DNA of 64,000 nt from an uncultured Muribaculaceae bacterium. Lineage in GTDB: Bacteria; Bacteroidota; Bacteroidia; Bacteroidales; Muribaculaceae. Shown piece after piece: positions 44 through 56,001 of this stretch (position 1 is its first letter; every line of letters starts with the position of its first letter). The stretch lies in contig CALUMJ010000001.1 of the NCBI GenBank assembly GCA_944321715.1, positions 62,001 to 126,000 of the forward strand, in the 5' to 3' direction. The translations under genes were made by a program, and so were the position numbers. The notes beneath the pieces were generated by a model that was not told where the DNA came from, did not search any database, and saw only the letters and a program-made list of their open reading frames with translations.

Positions 44-2068
44 ATGAACAAACATTTATCCAAAACTATGCTCGGCATGGGCATTTTGTCACTTGCCGCA
101 GTTTCTGCCAATGCGCAGATAGTTCCGTTGTTTGAAACCGACCCGCAATTCATTGCTCTCTCGGATAGCGAGAATCCTGGGAAGTGGGACACCGATATGT
201 TCCGCGGCAACGCCATTTGGGCCGACGTGAACAACGATGGCTGGATGGACCTATTCCAAGTAGGCAACACTACTGCTGCAGGATGGCACTCACACGTGTA
301 TGGGTGGACCAACAACGCCGGTACTTTCACCGAAATTACAGGTCTGCCTTTCGTGCAACGCAGCGACGGTCCGGGATGTACCACATCAGACCAACGCGGT
401 ACTAACAATAATACACTTGCATGGATTGACTACAACAACGATGGCAACATCGACATAATCCAACGTGGTATTAAAGAAGGGGCTGCCGAAGAAAACTCTA
501 CCGCAGCTGCCGACCTTTTCATCAACCTTTACCGTGGCAACGGCGATGGTACTTTCACTCTTGTTGAAAACACTGGCTTGGAAGTAATAGGCCTCGAACA
601 AGAAACACTCTACAGCGGCATCACTATGGTAGTGGATTTCGACTGCGACGGCTACCAAGACTTGACAATGACCGGCATAACCGACGACACCCGCGAAGTT
701 GCCCTCTACCACAACAATGGCGACGGCACTTTCACTAAACTCGACCCTGCAACCACATTTGTTGACTGGCAAGAAATGCCCTACGACTTGGCTCTCTCTT
801 CGGGTTCGATTGCATGGGGCGACTATAACAACGACGGCTATCCCGACTTTGCAGTAAACGGCTGGTCTGACACCGTCGGTGGTGTGGCTACAATCGTATG
901 CCGCAACAATGGCGACGGCTCATTCTTGTGCCTTGATATGTCACTTACCGACCCATACGCCGATTTCTTGCCCGAAGAACCTGGAACACAAAAGGGTATG
1001 CTCATGTGGGGCGACTTCAACAACGATGGCTGGCTCGACTTGTTTGTATGCGGTGAAACCTACGATGGCACCAACTGGGGCCGCACTGCCGACATCCTTC
1101 TTAACCGTGGCAACGACTACGAAAACCTCGAAGACTATCCCGAATCGCAATTCCAACGCATCCCGGCATCTGAATCGGGCATCAACCTCGGTGCTGCAAA
1201 AGGCAACTCTACCGACGTGATTGACCTCGATGGCAACGGATACTTAGACATTGTCGTAACCGGCGAAGGTGCAGGTGCGATGACCGACTTCATCATGAAC
1301 AACGGCGACCTGACATTCTCCGAAGACAACTCGACAAATGCCAACACCGACTTCCGCAGCGGCACAGCAATGGAATTCTTCGACTATGACGGCGACGGTT
1401 ACATCGACTTCTTCGCAATGGGATACCGTGACAACGGCCGCAAATTCCAATTGTTCAAAAACACTGGCAAGTATGAAGACGAAAACTTTGAAAGCCACGA
1501 TTTGGCAAAAAATAACGCACCTCAAGGCCCATCAAGCGTGGCAATGGCAGCCAACGGCAACGCCACTACCATCACATGGGGCAATGGCAGCGACAATGAA
1601 ACTCCCGACGAAGCATTGCGTTACAACGTAGCAATCGAGAAGACTAACGGCGAAATATTCATGCTCGTTCCTGCCGACCTCGAAACTGGCGACCTGAAAG
1701 TGGCCGGCCTCGCCAACCTCATCCTTGGCAACACCTACACTATCAATATCCCATCGAGCGACATCAAGCAAGCCTACGTACAAACTGTTGACGGAGCAAA
1801 GGCCACAAGCCAATTCGTCGAAGTGGGTGGCTCAAGTGCCGAGCTGGTATCGGCCAACGACGCCATAAAAGTATGGAACAACAGCGACGTGCTCAATGTC
1901 ACTGTCGATGACGCAGCCACAGTTACTATTTACGACATCACTGGCAACAAAGTTGCTGCAGTGAACATCAACGGTTCTACCACAATCGATTGCGCTGGCT
2001 ACAACGGCCTCTATCTCGTTAAGGTAGAAACCGAGAACGCCTGCAAAACTACAAAGGTCATTTTCTAA
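44..2068 (+). CDS. Secreted FG-GAP/VCBS repeat protein with C-terminal type IX sorting domain
   Basis: A surface or secreted protein of unknown ligand. An ATG at 20 is also in frame, but the ATG at 44 gives a clean signal peptide (MNKHLSK, hydrophobic core, cleavage near ANAQ), so it is preferred. Seven calcium-binding-type Asp-rich loops of the form DxNNDGxxDL lie between about residues 61 and 455, as in FG-GAP/VCBS beta-propellers. The last ~75 residues look like a Por/type IX sorting domain (VTIYDITGNKV, then GLYLVKV). It precedes susC but a strong terminator separates them. Binding or adhesion at the cell surface is an inference. Confidence 0.85.
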   Translation: MNKHLSKTMLGMGILSLAAVSANAQIVPLFETDPQFIALSDSENPGKWDTDMFRGNAIWADVNNDGWMDLFQVGNTTAAGWHSHVYGWTNNAGTFTEITGLPFVQRSDGPGCTTSDQRGTNNNTLAWIDYNNDGNIDIIQRGIKEGAAEENSTAAADLFINLYRGNGDGTFTLVENTGLEVIGLEQETLYSGITMVVDFDCDGYQDLTMTGITDDTREVALYHNNGDGTFTKLDPATTFVDWQEMPYDLALSSGSIAWGDYNNDGYPDFAVNGWSDTVGGVATIVCRNNGDGSFLCLDMSLTDPYADFLPEEPGTQKGMLMWGDFNNDGWLDLFVCGETYDGTNWGRTADILLNRGNDYENLEDYPESQFQRIPASESGINLGAAKGNSTDVIDLDGNGYLDIVVTGEGAGAMTDFIMNNGDLTFSEDNSTNANTDFRSGTAMEFFDYDGDGYIDFFAMGYRDNGRKFQLFKNTGKYEDENFESHDLAKNNAPQGPSSVAMAANGNATTITWGNGSDNETPDEALRYNVAIEKTNGEIFMLVPADLETGDLKVAGLANLILGNTYTINIPSSDIKQAYVQTVDGAKATSQFVEVGGSSAELVSANDAIKVWNNSDVLNVTVDDAATVTIYDITGNKVAAVNINGSTTIDCAGYNGLYLVKVETENACKTTKVIF

Positions 2069-17934: not shown

Positions 17935-18112
17935 GAGGGTGTATCAAAATGCAAATTTGCGCAATTTTGTAGGGACGCACGGCCCGTGCGTCCGCTGCGC
18001 AATTAGGTGCATATTCTGTTAATTTACAAATGGTTAACAGAACCTTGCGACATGCGGACGCACGAGCCGTGCGTCCCTACGAGGTGGGTACTGCCAATTT
18101 TGATACACCCTC
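17935..18112. mobile_element. 178-bp MITE/REPIN-like inverted-repeat element, GC-rich core type
   Basis: Perfect 16-bp terminal inverted repeats (GAGGGTGTATCAAAAT at 17935, its complement ending at 18112). Inside, 17969-17980 (GTAGGGACGCAC) pairs with 18069-18080. Each arm is itself a palindrome (17973-17993 and 18056-18076, built on GGACGCAC...GTGCGTCC). No ORF, so any movement would need an enzyme encoded elsewhere. An element with the same ends and length but a different core lies at 55824-56001. Confidence 0.75.
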
Positions 18113-18345
18113 TTTTTTCATGGGCCGAAATAGTGATGTTCCCAATAAAATGCTTCCAATAAGGACGCACAGCTGGTGGCCTGCTGCAATGTGGATTACG
18201 ACCTATTTCGGCATACTCTCGAAAACACCCGCTTATCTTCGTTGTTGTTTTCAGGACGCATACGATATGCCTCTAAATGGGATATTTATCGAAATACATT
18301 TACTTTTTTATATTTTTTCTTGTTAACCTTTTTCTTAATATTTAT
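18113..18345. other. Intergenic stretch before the structured RNA candidate
   Basis: No credible gene. It holds a 10-bp perfect inverted repeat (GCCGAAATAG at 18124-18133, complement at 18203-18212, loop 69 nt), possibly the remains of another inserted element, and an AT-rich run leading to the promoter at 18346. Confidence 0.4.
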
Positions 18346-18353
18346 TACTTTTG
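18319..18353 (+). promoter_or_regulatory. Bacteroidetes-type promoter of the structured RNA
   Basis: TACTTTTG at 18346-18353 matches the -7 consensus TAnnTTTG exactly. A CTTG at 18319-18322 could serve as the -33 element, with a rather long 23-nt spacer. Start of transcription would be near 18358. Confidence 0.55.
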
Positions 18354-18357
18354 TATG

Positions 18358-18753
18358 TGATTCTTACAGTCATGCTTGGCAGTTTTTCGCTGGGAATCTG
18401 TGCAGAGAGCAAGGCATGGCAGCCCACGCCGAGCCTTACGAAAGGCGGGTACTGGGCGGGTAATAGAATCAATACATGACATAAAAAGGCGTTTACTTAA
18501 CGCTTCATCTTTACGTTCCGAACTTCGAACACTTGGAATCCTTGTAACAGATGGCGCAACAGTAGATGTCCTCGGGATGTGTTTATACGCATCCCCTTGG
18601 TTGCATATAGCCAATTAGTAGGCACCTGCACCTTGGGGAAAGTTATATTCATATCGGCGTGGGCTTCGAAGTTGCTTATCTTTACAAGGTGGCAAGTTCG
18701 AAGGCCAGGAACGTGAGATAAGTAACTAAGTACGAATCTCACGCTATTTTTTT
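18358..18753 (+). ncRNA. Candidate ~0.4 kb structured non-coding RNA, family not recognised
   Basis: No good ORF, but strong folding in two domains. Domain 1 (18359-18470) is closed by GATTCT/AGAATC and holds the helices 18371-18378 with 18410-18418 and GCCTT-ACGA-AAGGC (18433-18446). Domain 2 (18493-18725) is a ladder of long-range helices: TTACTTA/TAAGTAA, ACGTTCC/GGAACGT, CTTCGAAC/GTTCGAAG, CCTTGTAA/TTACAAGG and GCAAC/GTTGC, with an apical hairpin GGATG...CATCC. The 3' end is an 8-bp hairpin (18712-18743) and a T-run. RNase P, tmRNA and SRP signature motifs were looked for and not seen; a divergent 6S RNA or a clade-specific RNA remains possible. Confidence 0.6.
18712..18753 (+). terminator. 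Terminator of the structured RNA candidate
   Basis: CGTGAGAT (18712-18719) pairs perfectly with ATCTCACG (18736-18743) and is followed by CTATTTTTTT. This end is what makes the upstream unit look like a discrete transcript. From 18754 to the next gene only a small CCGGC/GCCGG hairpin (18865-18879) is seen. Confidence 0.65.
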
Positions 18754-18883
18754 GTACACGTATCCATTGCATACCGACTTCAAAAGTATTTTACAGGATA
18801 TTACAAGAGCATATCGATGATTGCATGGGAGAACGAATTGCCAGATGCTGTGTAAGGAATGCAACCGGCGCAAAGCCGGGAAA

Positions 18884-18913
18884 TAAAAAGGTCGCCACAG
18901 TGCGGTGGCGACC
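18884..18913 (-). terminator. Terminator of the GH2-esterase operon
   Basis: A 9-bp perfect stem (GGTCGCCAC / GTGGCGACC, 18890-18913) with a 6-nt loop is followed on the minus strand by TTTTTATTT. Confidence 0.85.
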
Positions 18914-18939: not shown

Positions 18940-20922
18940 TCACCAGGTGTCGGTGCGGAAGGGGGCGACGGTGAAGCCCGAAGGGGTGCTCAACGTGCAT
19001 TCGGGGTTGTCGGCCCAAGCATAGCGCACAGCTGCCGGCATCGGCACTTCGTCGGAATACACAACCACAGTGCCATTCTCGACGTATGCCTTTGCTACAT
19101 GGAACATTTGGTCACTCCCTGCAATGATAAAGCCTTTAACATCGCTTGAAGCAATGAACGGCTCGCCGTCGGCAGGAATATCGAAAGTGATGCGCACCTT
19201 GTTGCCCTCGATTGTGTAGTCCTTGTAAACAGGCGCACTTGCCACCACATCGAGGCCGTAGGTGCGCGAGAGGGCGAGAGCCGACAGGCGACGACCTACT
19301 TCCTGCTTGTTCTTTGGGTGGATGTCACCAGCCTCGCCGAGGTCGATGTTCACCATCATGCCAGTGCCGCTGATATGCAACGCCTTGGCCTGTGCCTCAC
19401 GCAGCGCAGCCCATTGCGAGTCGGGTTGCACGTCGGCACGTTGCAGGTAGTTGGCAAGCTGCACGAAGTAGAATGGCATATCGGCATTGCCGAATTGCTT
19501 GCGCCAATCATGAATCATGGCTTGGAAGAGCGTTTCGTACTCACGTGAGCGACCTACGTTGGCTTCGCCTTGATACCAAATTGCACCTTTAAACGTATAT
19601 TTGAGCCACGGGTTGACCATAGCGTTGAACAGCACGGTAGGGTAGCTTGAACTGCCAGGCGACATAGGCACAGCAGGCATATCGACGAGCGAACAACCCA
19701 CACGGTATTTCCACGCACCAGCAAGCGATATTTTCTCGCTGCCACCACGATGCAATGCCATTGCATCGGCAGGGCCAGTAAGCCCACCTTCGCCACCAGT
19801 GTCGAAATCCCTCACCGCGATTACATTGCGGCCAGCCTTGACATAGGCGGCTGGCACAGTGTAGTGGCGAGGGGTGTTGTAACCAGCGCCTTCGGCAATC
19901 TTGATACCGTTCCAGTAAACAATATCCTCGTCGTCGATTGCACCCAAGTCGAGTTTCAATTCCTTGCCGGCCCACTGCTGCGGAATATCAACATCGTGGC
20001 GGAACCACACGACGCCATCGAAACCGGGCAATCCAGCCTGTTCCACATAATTCGGCACAGCCATATCTTTCCAGTCAGAGTCGTCAAAATCCTCGGCGAC
20101 CCACAATTCCTTGCCGTCGGAATTATAGCCCGTGTCAATCTTGTAAACACGCTCTTTCCATTCACCAAGCTGCTTTTGGTAAAGGGCAAATATTTTATCG
20201 CTGTCGAAATCAAGGGCTTTCAATGCCGCCATCTGCTCGCCGTAGCCATACACGCCGCTGAGCGTTTCAGCACTTGTCCAAGCCTCGGCCGGCGTGCCTC
20301 CCCACGTGCTTGCCACTACGCCTACAGGCACATGCAACTCTTGCCACAAGCGACGGGCAAAGAAATAGGCGAGCGACGAAAATTCGGGAACCGTAGATGG
20401 CGAACACTCTTGCCAGCCGCCGAGCGTTGACTCGACAGCGTCGGTAGGCTCGACCGACGTGGCTTGTTTCACAAGGTAAAGACGAATGTCGGGATAATCG
20501 GCATTGGCAATTTCTTGCTCGTAATCCTTGACTTTTCCCCACCCGGCAATCGGCATTTCCATGTTTGACTGCCCCGAGCAGAACCACACCTCGCCAAGCA
20601 TCACATTGCTTAATTTCAACTCCTTTCCATCAGAAATGGAAATCGTGTAGGGACCGCCAGCATCGGCAGTAGCCACTCGCACACTCCATGCGCCATCGGC
20701 ATCAGAACGTGTGACGACGGCACCGGCCGACCAACCCACTTTTACCGTCACGCGGCTATTTTTGTCGGCCGAGCCATAAATCGTCACTGTATCGTTGCGT
20801 TGCAGCACCATGTTGTCGGTGAAAATCCCGGGCAACGTCACTCGTGCATCAAGGGTTGCCGGGCTTGCGACAGCCGCAAGCCCCAGCACTCCTGTAATAA
20901 TTTTCTTAAAGCGATTATTCAT
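18940..20922 (-). CDS. Sialate O-acetylesterase (SGNH hydrolase family)
   Basis: Probably removes O-acetyl groups from sialic acids or other glycans so that exo-glycosidases can proceed. A signal peptide (IITGVLGLAAVASPATLDA) is followed by the conserved TLPGIFTDNMVLQR start. CSGQSNMEMP carries the nucleophile Ser119, and GDIHPKNKQEVG carries the Asp533-x-His535 pair of the triad. A galactose-binding-like beta-sandwich insertion lies near residues 240-370. The 660 aa length is typical. It starts 2 bp after the GH2 stop, so the two are co-transcribed under the HTCS locus. The exact ester substrate is not shown by sequence. Confidence 0.9.
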   Translation of the reverse strand: MNNRFKKIITGVLGLAAVASPATLDARVTLPGIFTDNMVLQRNDTVTIYGSADKNSRVTVKVGWSAGAVVTRSDADGAWSVRVATADAGGPYTISISDGKELKLSNVMLGEVWFCSGQSNMEMPIAGWGKVKDYEQEIANADYPDIRLYLVKQATSVEPTDAVESTLGGWQECSPSTVPEFSSLAYFFARRLWQELHVPVGVVASTWGGTPAEAWTSAETLSGVYGYGEQMAALKALDFDSDKIFALYQKQLGEWKERVYKIDTGYNSDGKELWVAEDFDDSDWKDMAVPNYVEQAGLPGFDGVVWFRHDVDIPQQWAGKELKLDLGAIDDEDIVYWNGIKIAEGAGYNTPRHYTVPAAYVKAGRNVIAVRDFDTGGEGGLTGPADAMALHRGGSEKISLAGAWKYRVGCSLVDMPAVPMSPGSSSYPTVLFNAMVNPWLKYTFKGAIWYQGEANVGRSREYETLFQAMIHDWRKQFGNADMPFYFVQLANYLQRADVQPDSQWAALREAQAKALHISGTGMMVNIDLGEAGDIHPKNKQEVGRRLSALALSRTYGLDVVASAPVYKDYTIEGNKVRITFDIPADGEPFIASSDVKGFIIAGSDQMFHVAKAYVENGTVVVYSDEVPMPAAVRYAWADNPECTLSTPSGFTVAPFRTDTW

Positions 20923-40149: not shown

Positions 40150-41244
40150 TTACAACCTCACACCTATGCGAGCCGACAACGACCATGCTTTTTCATCATC
40201 AAAGTCGCTGTTTTTCACAGCCCTACTAACAGTATTGCCAGTTGCATACGATAAACCTATGCCAAAGTTAAACCTTCCAAATTTCACACCCACTTGAGGT
40301 TCAAACAGCATACAACTTTCCATTGAAGTACCAAATTGATAGCCCAAATCAACAGCTACGTATGGCCTAAAATTTACATTTTCGTTCAAGAATGTATATT
40401 TTCCACGCACATATAAAGGTACGCATGGGATAGCTTCAATACCATCATCTATTTGCTTGGCTGTGAAACGATTGGTTTCATAGTCATAATCATACTGCTT
40501 ATTATTAAAACATTTGTCAAATTTGTTCATGTACAAGCGAACACCTGTTCCTATACCGACCATCCAATGCTCGTCGATGTCATAACCCCAAATAACATTG
40601 GCAAACACATTGCTACCGACGCGGTGATTATGGTCATCTTCATTGTCGCCTTCGGCAAAATCACGACCTAATTCCAACGGAGAATATGTACTAAAGCCGT
40701 ATGCGGCACCGAGTTCTATATCCACATGGGTCCTCTTTATGAAACGCTTTAAACCGTCGCCCGAACCGTCACCAAACATATAACCTACCTTAAGGTTTAT
40801 GTTGTTACCAGTTTTTAATCCACTCTTGGTAGGTATAGCCGCATAATAACCCACACCTATGTAAAAGTTGCTATACCTTACACCCACAGTAGGGTTTACC
40901 ACAACAGAACCGTATTCAAAATCTTCGGTATTAAGGCTATACCCCATATCAAGTGAAATGAAAGGTGAAATACCCGAAAAATTATGCTCGGCCTGCGCAC
41001 GCAGCAGAATAGGGATACTGGGATTTACATCGAAATCAAACGACTCGGCAACACCCACCGAACCACCTATCAAGAAGTTGTCGTTGATATGCTTCAATGC
41101 ACCCACTTGCAAGTTTAGCGCATGGCTTGCACCATCGGCAGTGGAAAAAATCGGTTGCAACTCAATGAACACATTCCACTTGCGGTTAGCATCTTGAGCA
41201 TTTGCAAAACTTGATAGCAACAAAGCACTTAATGCCACTACCAT
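40150..41244 (-). CDS. Outer-membrane beta-barrel protein; start probably broken by one base
   Basis: About 340 residues of alternating amphipathic strands (FIELQPIF, LLRAQAEHNFSG, YIGVGYYAAIP, WGYDIDEHWMVGIGTGVRLY) ending in LSARIGVRL, typical of Bacteroidales porin-like barrels of unknown cargo. As read, the protein starts at MVVALSALLLSS, a signal peptide without the usual basic residues. Upstream at 41266 an ATG begins MKILKG in another frame; removing one G from the AAAAGGG at 41252-41258 joins them as MKILKGQMVVALSALLL, a perfect signal peptide. The gene has a ~300-nt structured leader. Confidence 0.75.
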   Translation of the reverse strand: MVVALSALLLSSFANAQDANRKWNVFIELQPIFSTADGASHALNLQVGALKHINDNFLIGGSVGVAESFDFDVNPSIPILLRAQAEHNFSGISPFISLDMGYSLNTEDFEYGSVVVNPTVGVRYSNFYIGVGYYAAIPTKSGLKTGNNINLKVGYMFGDGSGDGLKRFIKRTHVDIELGAAYGFSTYSPLELGRDFAEGDNEDDHNHRVGSNVFANVIWGYDIDEHWMVGIGTGVRLYMNKFDKCFNNKQYDYDYETNRFTAKQIDDGIEAIPCVPLYVRGKYTFLNENVNFRPYVAVDLGYQFGTSMESCMLFEPQVGVKFGRFNFGIGLSYATGNTVSRAVKNSDFDDEKAWSLSARIGVRL

Positions 41245-41287
41245 TTGTCCCTTTTAAAATTTTCATAATATAGTCACAGATGACACC

Positions 41288-41508
41288 GAGACCCATAGTG
41301 CCAATTTTAAATGTTTTACTTTCAAACTCATACAATGAAAACGTGGGTCTCGCCTTTATTGTCATTTCCAAGGCTCTGCAAAGCCCTACTCCGCCAATAA
41401 AGTCAAGCCCACGTCTGTGTACATCATAGCAGACATGGGCGTTAAACTTTACATTCTTGCGGAGTTGAATTTTGCAGATTCTGGAAATGCAAGAAATAAA
41501 GCTAACGC
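41288..41508 (-). ncRNA. Structured leader or small RNA upstream of the barrel gene
   Basis: Three strong nested-free helices in the 422-bp gap: GCGTTAGCTTTATTTCTTGC (41489-41508) with its near-complement at 41439-41460; GCCCA-GTCTG arms at 41407-41417 and 41430-41440; and GAGACCCA/TGGGTCTC at 41288-41295 and 41344-41351, plus a small GGCT/AGCC hairpin at 41372-41385. A minus-strand promoter lies at 41569. No ORF is convincing. It may be a cis-regulatory leader or an independent RNA. Confidence 0.5.
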
Positions 41509-41568
41509 TCCTTTGTACTATTTTTTATTTTCTTCTTACTTTCTTACTTAATTTTATAATTATTGTTA

Positions 41569-41600
41569 CAAAGATAATGCAAGGCGAGCGAAGAAAAAAC
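41569..41600 (-). promoter_or_regulatory. Promoter of the structured leader and barrel gene
   Basis: TATCTTTG (41569-41576, minus strand) is an exact -7 match. The spacer holds CGCTCGCCTTGC, very close to the CGCTCACCTTGC in the pdxJ cassettes at 63.0 kb; the -33 position reads TTTT. Confidence 0.55.
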
Positions 41601-55823: not shown

Positions 55824-56001
55824 GTGGGAGTATCAAAATAGTAATACAATCAGCAATCACTGGTAGCCACTGTGTAGAGCCGTCATATCATGGCGGCTCG
55901 TTACTGCATAGGTTACAACATATTTCGACCGCTATCAGGCTGTCATCGAGCCGCCATGATATGACGGCTCTACAACGTAATTACTATTTTGATACACCCT
56001 C
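55824..56001. mobile_element. 178-bp MITE/REPIN-like element, second core type
   Basis: Ends of 22 bp (55824-55845 and 55980-56001) are inverted repeats with two mismatches and share GTATCAAAAT / ATTTTGATACACCCTC with the element at 17935. The core is a perfect 28-bp inverted repeat (55873-55900 against 55947-55974), and each arm is itself a palindrome around GAGCCG...CGGCTC. Total length equals that of the 17.9 kb element though the cores are unrelated. Confidence 0.75.

Follow-up and report, generated by a model that had tools for sequence, protein, structure and literature searches.

The RNA encoded at 18346-18753 (+), hereafter copy 1, lies in a 64-kb window (the whole stretch of DNA analysed) and is best explained, at a probability that we put at roughly 0.7, as a member of a Bacteroidales RNA family whose large, pseudoknotted 5′ leaders would act in cis, switch between mutually exclusive folds and control readthrough and probably translation. 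Comparison of the copies shows the helices and that these compete for shared letters; it also shows the position as a leader and that the RNA's last arm covaries with a site just before the start codon. The sequence-only reading had proposed an RNA gene at this place; the large structured RNA, its own promoter and a terminator-like end were all recovered, but the RNA is not a free-standing single gene, being one copy of a dispersed family most of whose members are leaders.

The features of copy 1 and of a second, compact copy in the window are collected in Table 1. As had been proposed from the letters, copy 1 carries an exact TAnnTTTG element, consists of two separate folding domains (a 5′ domain and a long-range domain) and ends in an 8-bp hairpin with a T-run. 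The MFE of 18359-18756 was −147.3 kcal/mol, versus −110.0 ± 5.7 kcal/mol in 100 dinucleotide shuffles (z −6.55; 0/100 shuffles as low), and the three overlapping ORFs (80–91 aa) within copy 1 matched no Pfam family, in agreement with the earlier remark that there was no convincing protein. By eye, the CACGCCGA..GG.GGG-like pattern of the 5′ domain recurs at variable length in many homologues, and the apical region of the core differs in both sequence and length between copies. Separately, the window contains two ~175-bp palindromic repeats (~17936-18113 and 55826-55999) with GGGTGTATCAAAAT-type inverted ends (4 matches versus 0.02 expected by chance) and different interiors, one of which lies just upstream of copy 1.

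Table 1. Positions of RNA features and of the associated gene in the window
Feature	Sequence or content	Position	Strand	Basis
Copy 1, Bacteroidota-type promoter element TAnnTTTG	TACTTTTG	18346-18353	+	sequence
Copy 1, 5′ domain	GATTC/GAATC closing; CATGCTTGGC hairpin; GCCCACGCCGAGCC-TTACGAAA-GGCGGG	18359-18470 (approximate)	+	MFE fold
Copy 1, conserved core (long-range domain)	R1 match, 82.1 bits	18485-18748	+	cmsearch, E 3.7e-18; copy 1 is among the 28 sequences that built R1
5′ hairpin, P1 and P2 (imperfect in copy 1)	P1 GGCGTTTACT/AGTAGATGTC; P2 GCTTCATCTTTAC/GTAACAGATGGCGC	18488-18570	+	A1 alignment: 93.5% and 84.4% of cells paired
Long-range helix H2	ACGTTCC/GGAACGT	18513-18519 with 18708-18714	+	105 matches: both sides change in 9/9 pairs, 96.4% of cells paired
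Long-range helix H3	CTTCGAAC/GTTCGAAG	18523-18530 with 18696-18703	+	both sides change in 6/7 pairs, 99.1% of cells paired
Long-range helix H4	CCTTGTAA/TTACAAGG	18540-18547 with 18682-18689	+	copy-specific complementarity
Variable apical region, start	GGGATGTG/CGCATCCC	18574-18595	+	sequence
Closing helix Pc	GGCGTGGG/CTCACGCT	18656-18663 with 18738-18745	+	A1: 97.8% of cells paired
Helix Pd	GTTGCTTATC/GATAAGTAAC	18671-18680 with 18717-18726	+	A1: 96.4% of cells paired, both sides change in 5/10 pairs
Terminator-like hairpin and T-run	CGTGAGAT/ATCTCACG (18712-18719/18736-18743), then CTATTTTTTT	18712-18753	+	letters common to H2, Pc and Pd
Compact copy 2	R1 match 41337-41514, 28.3 bits	41341-41508	−	E 8.7e-5 (low score); helices by eye
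Copy 2 helices	H2 CATTTCCA/TGGAAATG; H3 TCTGCAAA/TTTGCAGA; H4 CTCCGC/GCGGAG; Pc ACGTGGG/CCCACGT		−	by eye
Copy 2 promoter element	TATCTTTG	41569-41576	−	sequence
Copy 2 pre-start hairpin	GGCAC-TATGGGTCTCG-GTGTC	41282-41302	−	sequence, by eye
Gene behind copy 2	364 aa, hydrophobic N-terminus	40150-41244	−	ORF list

Helices of the core and their competition

The 5′ half of the core forms the hairpin P1+P2 and the 3′ half the hairpin Pc+Pd, with the loops of the two halves complementary to each other via H2, H3 and H4. In the MAFFT alignment A1 (57 pairs in seven helices), 92.9% of cells were paired, compared with 84.1% after shuffling and 40–47% after sliding; both sides change in 28/57 pairs, and 0/500 shuffles reach any of five measures, letter and partner shuffles leaving the relatedness of the copies in place. 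Covariation thus supports the long-range helices and, as judged from these alignments, the core is a conserved structured element of the kind found in riboswitches and attenuators. Among the helices that had been singled out beforehand as the best, CCTTGTAA/TTACAAGG and ACGTTCC/GGAACGT are real and covary, while TTACTTA/TAAGTAA (18493-18499 with 18719-18725) is present in copy 1 but absent among the helices conserved in the alignments, TAAGTAA belonging instead to the conserved Pd.

Since R1 had neither H2 nor H3 as pairs, the matches aligned by this model test the two helices without leaning to them. The paired fraction for H2 and H3 was 97.6% in 105 matches (72.1% shuffled) and 95.4% in 59 matches from another locus set (74.4% shuffled), the columns having been picked on the very alignments tested, even if the helices are those already seen in A1; in the 59-match test, further pair types were reached by 48/500 shuffles. 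Alignment A4 holds most of R1's own sequences, and A6 has a few contigs in common with A4. The internal loop between H2 and H3 contains an invariant AA and GCC. For H4, 26 different sequences occur among 28 copies with pairing retained, and the mean score was 7.86 with own partners versus 4.33 with the partners of other copies (28 sequences). Pc reached a score of ≥6 in 164/166 long and 9/9 short matches, a count made without a chance control and with two matches of intermediate length omitted.

The 3′ end of the RNA is where the helices compete. A T-run (at least six T within the last 10 nt) is present in 174/177 copies, and Pc and the terminator hairpin draw on the same 3′ arm. For the terminator hairpin, 86.3% of cells were paired and both sides change in 4/6 pairs (19/500 shuffles reach that), with further pair types reached by 396/500 shuffles, so that support for the hairpin by itself is confined to some of the measures. 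In A1, column 180 takes part both in H2 (A-U 18, G-C 6) and in the terminator hairpin (U-A 18, C-G 5, U-G 1); the same letter therefore covaries with two partners, which is the trace that alternative folds would leave. This end is a candidate expression platform: the competing helices covary on shared letters, and Pc is near-universal. No strong local terminator hairpin was found in 68/166 long and 8/9 short matches, and therefore only the long-range Pc could serve there.

The compact form found outside the family Muribaculaceae (~160–175 nt) keeps H2, H3, H4 and Pc, with the local terminator hairpin missing in 8/8. The ninth short match, L035 from the own genome of copy 1, is of the long type despite its 150 nt and retains H2, H3, Pd and Pc together with the terminator hairpin; because it lacks the strands that would complete P1, P2 and H4, these three helices are not needed everywhere.

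Distribution of the family and comparison with known RNAs

A blastn search with copy 1 revealed a second copy in its own genome (83% identical across most of the RNA) and matches in 46/297 genomes of the family, and the aligned relatives share TAnnTTTG, a conserved core and a terminal T-run, with a 5′ part that varies. The covariance model R1, built from 28 sequences with the apical loop omitted, matched at least 275/297 genomes of the family Muribaculaceae at E 0.001 and at least 75/295 genomes of the order Bacteroidales at E 1e-5 (four of these 75 being Muribaculaceae); eight candidates per genome were scored in these two scans, which makes the copy numbers, and possibly the genome counts too, minimum values. 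Across the phylum, 1/296 sampled genomes matched at E 1e-6, namely the own genome, in which 10 R1 matches correspond to nine loci (two matches fall in one copy, and two loci score below 29 bits). Prevotella, Bacteroides, Paraprevotella, Hallella and Xylanibacter were, with others, among the matches listed in a core-pattern scan, and copies occur in the records of the named isolates Paraprevotella clara, Hallella mizrahii, Xylanibacter rodentium and Phocaeicola oris. The loci studied came mainly from the best-scoring matches, and the counts of promoters, T-runs and gene positions given here draw on as many as 177 loci (174 distinct RNA sequences), among which close relatives remain. At one locus (L099), two RNA copies lie back to back, at 349-573 (−) and 901-1150 (+), facing apart.

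Many dispersed copies per genome, in a window with other palindromic repeats, might also suggest a mobile or palindromic MITE-like repeat that happens to fold. We consider this very improbable: pairing is kept even though many copies are just 60–67% identical to copy 1, and the copies have a promoter on one side and a start codon on the other. The RNA of copy 1 had no match in the plasmid and phage collections and the core pattern occurred in only one viral contig, on which grounds a phage or plasmid origin was rejected as well.

Comparison with Rfam pointed to no known family. At gathering thresholds, the single match in the whole window was one tRNA, and below threshold the region 18200-18900 gave three matches (E 1 to 7.7). 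When 4,227 Rfam 15 models were run on the window and on 35 loci of relatives, none overlapped the RNA at the thresholds used except for two chance-like matches on the opposite strand (E 1.4 and 7.7). No family covers copy 1; the RNase P, tmRNA and SRP signatures that had been sought by eye in vain have no Rfam match either, and these families were rejected together with T-box and the other Rfam families. As to the earlier alternative of a 6S homologue or something new, the RNA is new, in that it is absent from Rfam 15, and it is not 6S: Bacteroidales-1 (RF01693), which we take to be the order's 6S candidate, has no match in 18346-18756 and matches another locus of the same genome (G000:C58:7930-8116, 122.5 bits). 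Bacteroidales-1 RNA comes from the same order and has the same promoter type and a terminator; it differs in sequence and locus. A long hairpin-like MFE fold is what a 6S or other housekeeping RNA would also present, but with nine distinct loci in one genome, a leader position, no Rfam match and Bacteroidales-1 residing elsewhere, the chance that copy 1 is such an RNA is close to nil.

Among the known systems close to the family are riboswitches and attenuators: in both, a 5′ leader that is large, structured and conserved has a terminator-like end and a gene directly behind, and the helices of the present family are putatively mutually exclusive, as theirs are. The c-di-GMP and cobalamin riboswitches likewise have many copies per genome. 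The differences lie in a gene set without a common pathway, an extra contact between the last arm and the pre-start site, and the lack of a match to any Rfam class.

DUF805 (RF03081) and DUF805b (RF02914) are also multi-copy in the same order and are listed as cis-regulatory in Rfam, whereas their sequence and size (68 and 35 positions) differ from those of the leader. At E 0.001, RF03081 was found in 50/119 and RF02914 in 57/80 Bacteroidales genomes, with up to 17 matches per genome. RF03081 has no match within the RNA (where present, it lies behind it) and none in the own genome, where two DUF805b matches lie ~1.2 and 1.7 kb behind the best leader copy (G000:C3). R1 matched directly upstream of 4/55 DUF805/DUF805b loci (L302, L305, L316 and L335), on the same strand and 22–146 nt away; one of the four matches was strong (59.4 bits) and three were weak (22–26 bits). 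Specifically, these were 2/30 DUF805 loci, the strong one being the place of L147 (a compact copy followed in tandem by a DUF805 RNA), and 2/25 DUF805b loci, both weak. With no R1 match at the other 51/55 loci, though R1 may miss compact forms, we rejected these RNAs as a regular part of the leader, while all four matches being upstream on the same strand is a counterpoint. DUF805-type RNAs and the leader are thus separate elements that can stand in tandem.

Among RNAs described in the literature, FopS is a multi-copy family of the same order with 14 members in B. thetaiotaomicron, whose RNAs of ~65–70 nt act in trans on susC start regions (PMC11697453). By this size and description, FopS/GibS of Bacteroides are set apart from the present RNA, which is mostly a leader and has a core of ~160–270 nt, and identity with FopS was rejected on size. 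Several Bacteroidetes candidates that Fremin and Bhatt reported in 2021 from HMP2 lie near radical SAM, TPR or TonB genes (PMC8040213); those with a stated length measure 40–132 bp, a comparison by description that leaves room for overlap. Among the papers listed in the literature searches, no description of the leader RNA appeared. The family is therefore uncatalogued in the sense of being absent from Rfam 15, and parts of it may figure among the candidates of the large screen (PMC8040213). It belongs to the structured regulatory leaders, and its novelty lies in its breadth, its loop–loop core and the contact between arm and pre-start site.

Leader position, downstream genes and the pre-start contact

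TAnnTTTG occurred within 165 nt upstream of the core in 163/174 copies, versus 9.5% of letter-shuffled sequences and 10/172 downstream control stretches inside the gene region. In 126/170 copies, an ATG ORF of at least 100 aa opens on the same strand 25–135 nt beyond the RNA, compared with 7/84 in the mirrored upstream (divergent) control; with distinct RNA sequences only, the numbers were 123/167 versus 8/89, and an earlier, laxer ORF count gave 91/95 versus 57/86. In the laxer and the 170-copy counts, copy 1 is entered as having an ORF, a 96-aa one on the (+) strand that overlaps the opposite-strand gene and is held to be spurious. A convergent gene ended in the 25–135 nt zone in 7/170 copies, and 27/170 lacked an ATG ORF of ≥70 aa on the same strand at the expected place. 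The copies are mostly mRNA leaders, in the position of riboswitches and attenuators, though copy 1 itself is not.

The genes behind the RNA are diverse and accessory and include those for BACON and Ig-like proteins, glycosyltransferases, radical SAM enzymes, kinases, AbiH and DUF2971. BspA-type leucine-rich repeat proteins (LRR_5) formed the commonest family (13/82 and 5/66 proteins, pooled into dummy alignments solely for joint scanning); related repeats aside, no other family exceeded 3/82 or 3/66 among the best 25 of 55 and of 63 families. By a simple pattern, 48/168 downstream proteins have lipoprotein-like N-termini, and hydrophobic N-termini were found for 81/126 downstream genes versus 151/384 further long ORFs from these loci, spurious ORFs being part of that control. 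Screening of 66/148 downstream proteins with a defence library yielded scattered matches (PDC-S31 models in at most four proteins, PD-T4-6 in two). No common pathway was seen among the downstream genes, which hence give no hint of a ligand.

Such a gene set raises the possibility, which is a sub-reading of our main interpretation and overlaps it, that the leader is an antitermination or autoregulatory element that dispenses with a small-molecule ligand and binds a protein, a NusG paralogue or another RNA-binding protein, at the AA/GCC loop. The invariance of that loop between the freely varying H2 and H3 would fit, as would the heterogeneous, surface-rich regulons known for processive antiterminators, which the downstream genes resemble. 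On the other side, no constant neighbour protein was seen among the downstream and the upstream neighbours, the latter being ordinary and mixed; we regard protein binding of this kind as possible, if somewhat doubtful.

Several loci deserve separate mention. At L053 and L110 the RNA precedes short ORFs starting RR(D/E)FFKKAAK, of which that of L110 is Cys/Gly/Ser-rich and looks like a modified-peptide precursor, and at L035 and L108 it precedes radical SAM-like proteins. Small proteins of 71–90 aa that are alike by eye (GERIRE...WLARKL.C.R.NVYRIF) follow the RNA at L049, L058, L022, L162 and L166 and are probably DNA-binding.

By eye, the stretch from the T-run to the start codon contains, in many copies, a small hairpin whose loop is of the GGGARYY type. 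A loose version of this loop pattern was found in 106/142 pre-start segments, with minimum-energy folds of the segments not showing the hairpin in all. The segment complements the RNA's last arm in a copy-specific manner, with a mean score of 16.62 for own partners versus 14.15 ± 0.21 for those of other copies (142 copies). Non-redundant copies with a score of ≥6 numbered 74/123 (49/123 lay below), compared with a mean of 37 and a maximum of 48 for the partners of other copies (200 rounds) and with 23 for letter-shuffled segments; the 123 were drawn from 145 copies with an ORF found and a gap of 30–150 nt between RNA and start, out of 168 ORFs. The site lies a median of 25 nt before the start codon, and four other segments of the RNA gave no pairing signal with the pre-start segment. 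Being located downstream of the T-run, the contact cannot itself prevent termination.

These properties could also be imagined for a family of trans-acting small RNAs, in which the terminated transcript would be the product, its GACUCCC-like arm would pair with the pre-start sites of its own or other messages, and the neighbouring gene would be one target among several. The promoter (163/174) and T-run (174/177), the nearness of the contact site to the start codon, the similar GGGAGYC sites common to many copies (by eye) and the lack of an own gene at copy 1 would all agree with this. Own partners nevertheless beat those of other copies, which favours action in cis, and 126/170 copies lie directly before a gene; we therefore consider a trans-acting family unlikely, and the copy specificity of the contact inclines us to a switch that acts in cis.

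Copy 1 has no gene behind it, the next gene lying on the opposite strand and ending at 18940, and no fitting pre-start site, the best complement within the next 174 nt scoring 5.5 and falling outside the expected part of the arm. Because promoter and core are kept while gene and site are lacking, copy 1 is an orphan, either a relic or a leader now acting solely as free RNA. Unlike this orphan, compact copy 2 is a complete unit of leader and gene, whose pre-start loop TGGGTCTCG is a perfect 9-nt complement of CGAGACCCA (41344-41352) in its 3′ arm. Read by eye, the product of the gene appears to be an outer-membrane beta-barrel protein. The ATG at 41266 (−) starts a reading frame (MKILKGTN...) other than that of the 364-aa ORF beginning at 41244; the N-terminus of this ORF may be frameshifted, or the earlier ATG may not be used.

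Proposed mechanism and its meaning

In the mechanism that we prefer, the cis-acting switch, a typical copy would be transcribed from its own TAnnTTTG promoter, upon which the 5′ domain and the long-range core would fold, and the RNA would end in a GC-rich arm and T-run, usually 25–135 nt ahead of an accessory gene's start codon. We infer a folding switch that would govern termination, readthrough and probably translation. In one fold, Pc or the local hairpin would be closed beside the T-run and transcription would stop, which for copy 1 would give a discrete RNA of ~395 nt; in the other, transcription would read through the T-run. On the readthrough message, the freed arm (e.g., GACUCCC) would pair with the pre-start site (GGGAGUC) and so set access to the start codon. 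A signal, be it a small molecule, a protein or an RNA, would choose between the folds.

More tentatively, and at somewhat less than even odds, the family may be an order-wide class of RNA switch through which one signal sets many unrelated accessory genes per genome in two layers, attenuation at the T-run and translation control by the contact between arm and pre-start site (~25 nt before the start codon). The genes so set would comprise those for surface proteins, lipoproteins, kinases and peptide-modifying enzymes as well as defence-like genes. If the proposed mechanism is true, many of the variable surface and accessory genes in gut Bacteroidales are under the control of a single uncatalogued RNA element, which would provide a testable handle on how genes without a shared pathway are co-ordinated and possibly a new class of signal-sensing RNA.
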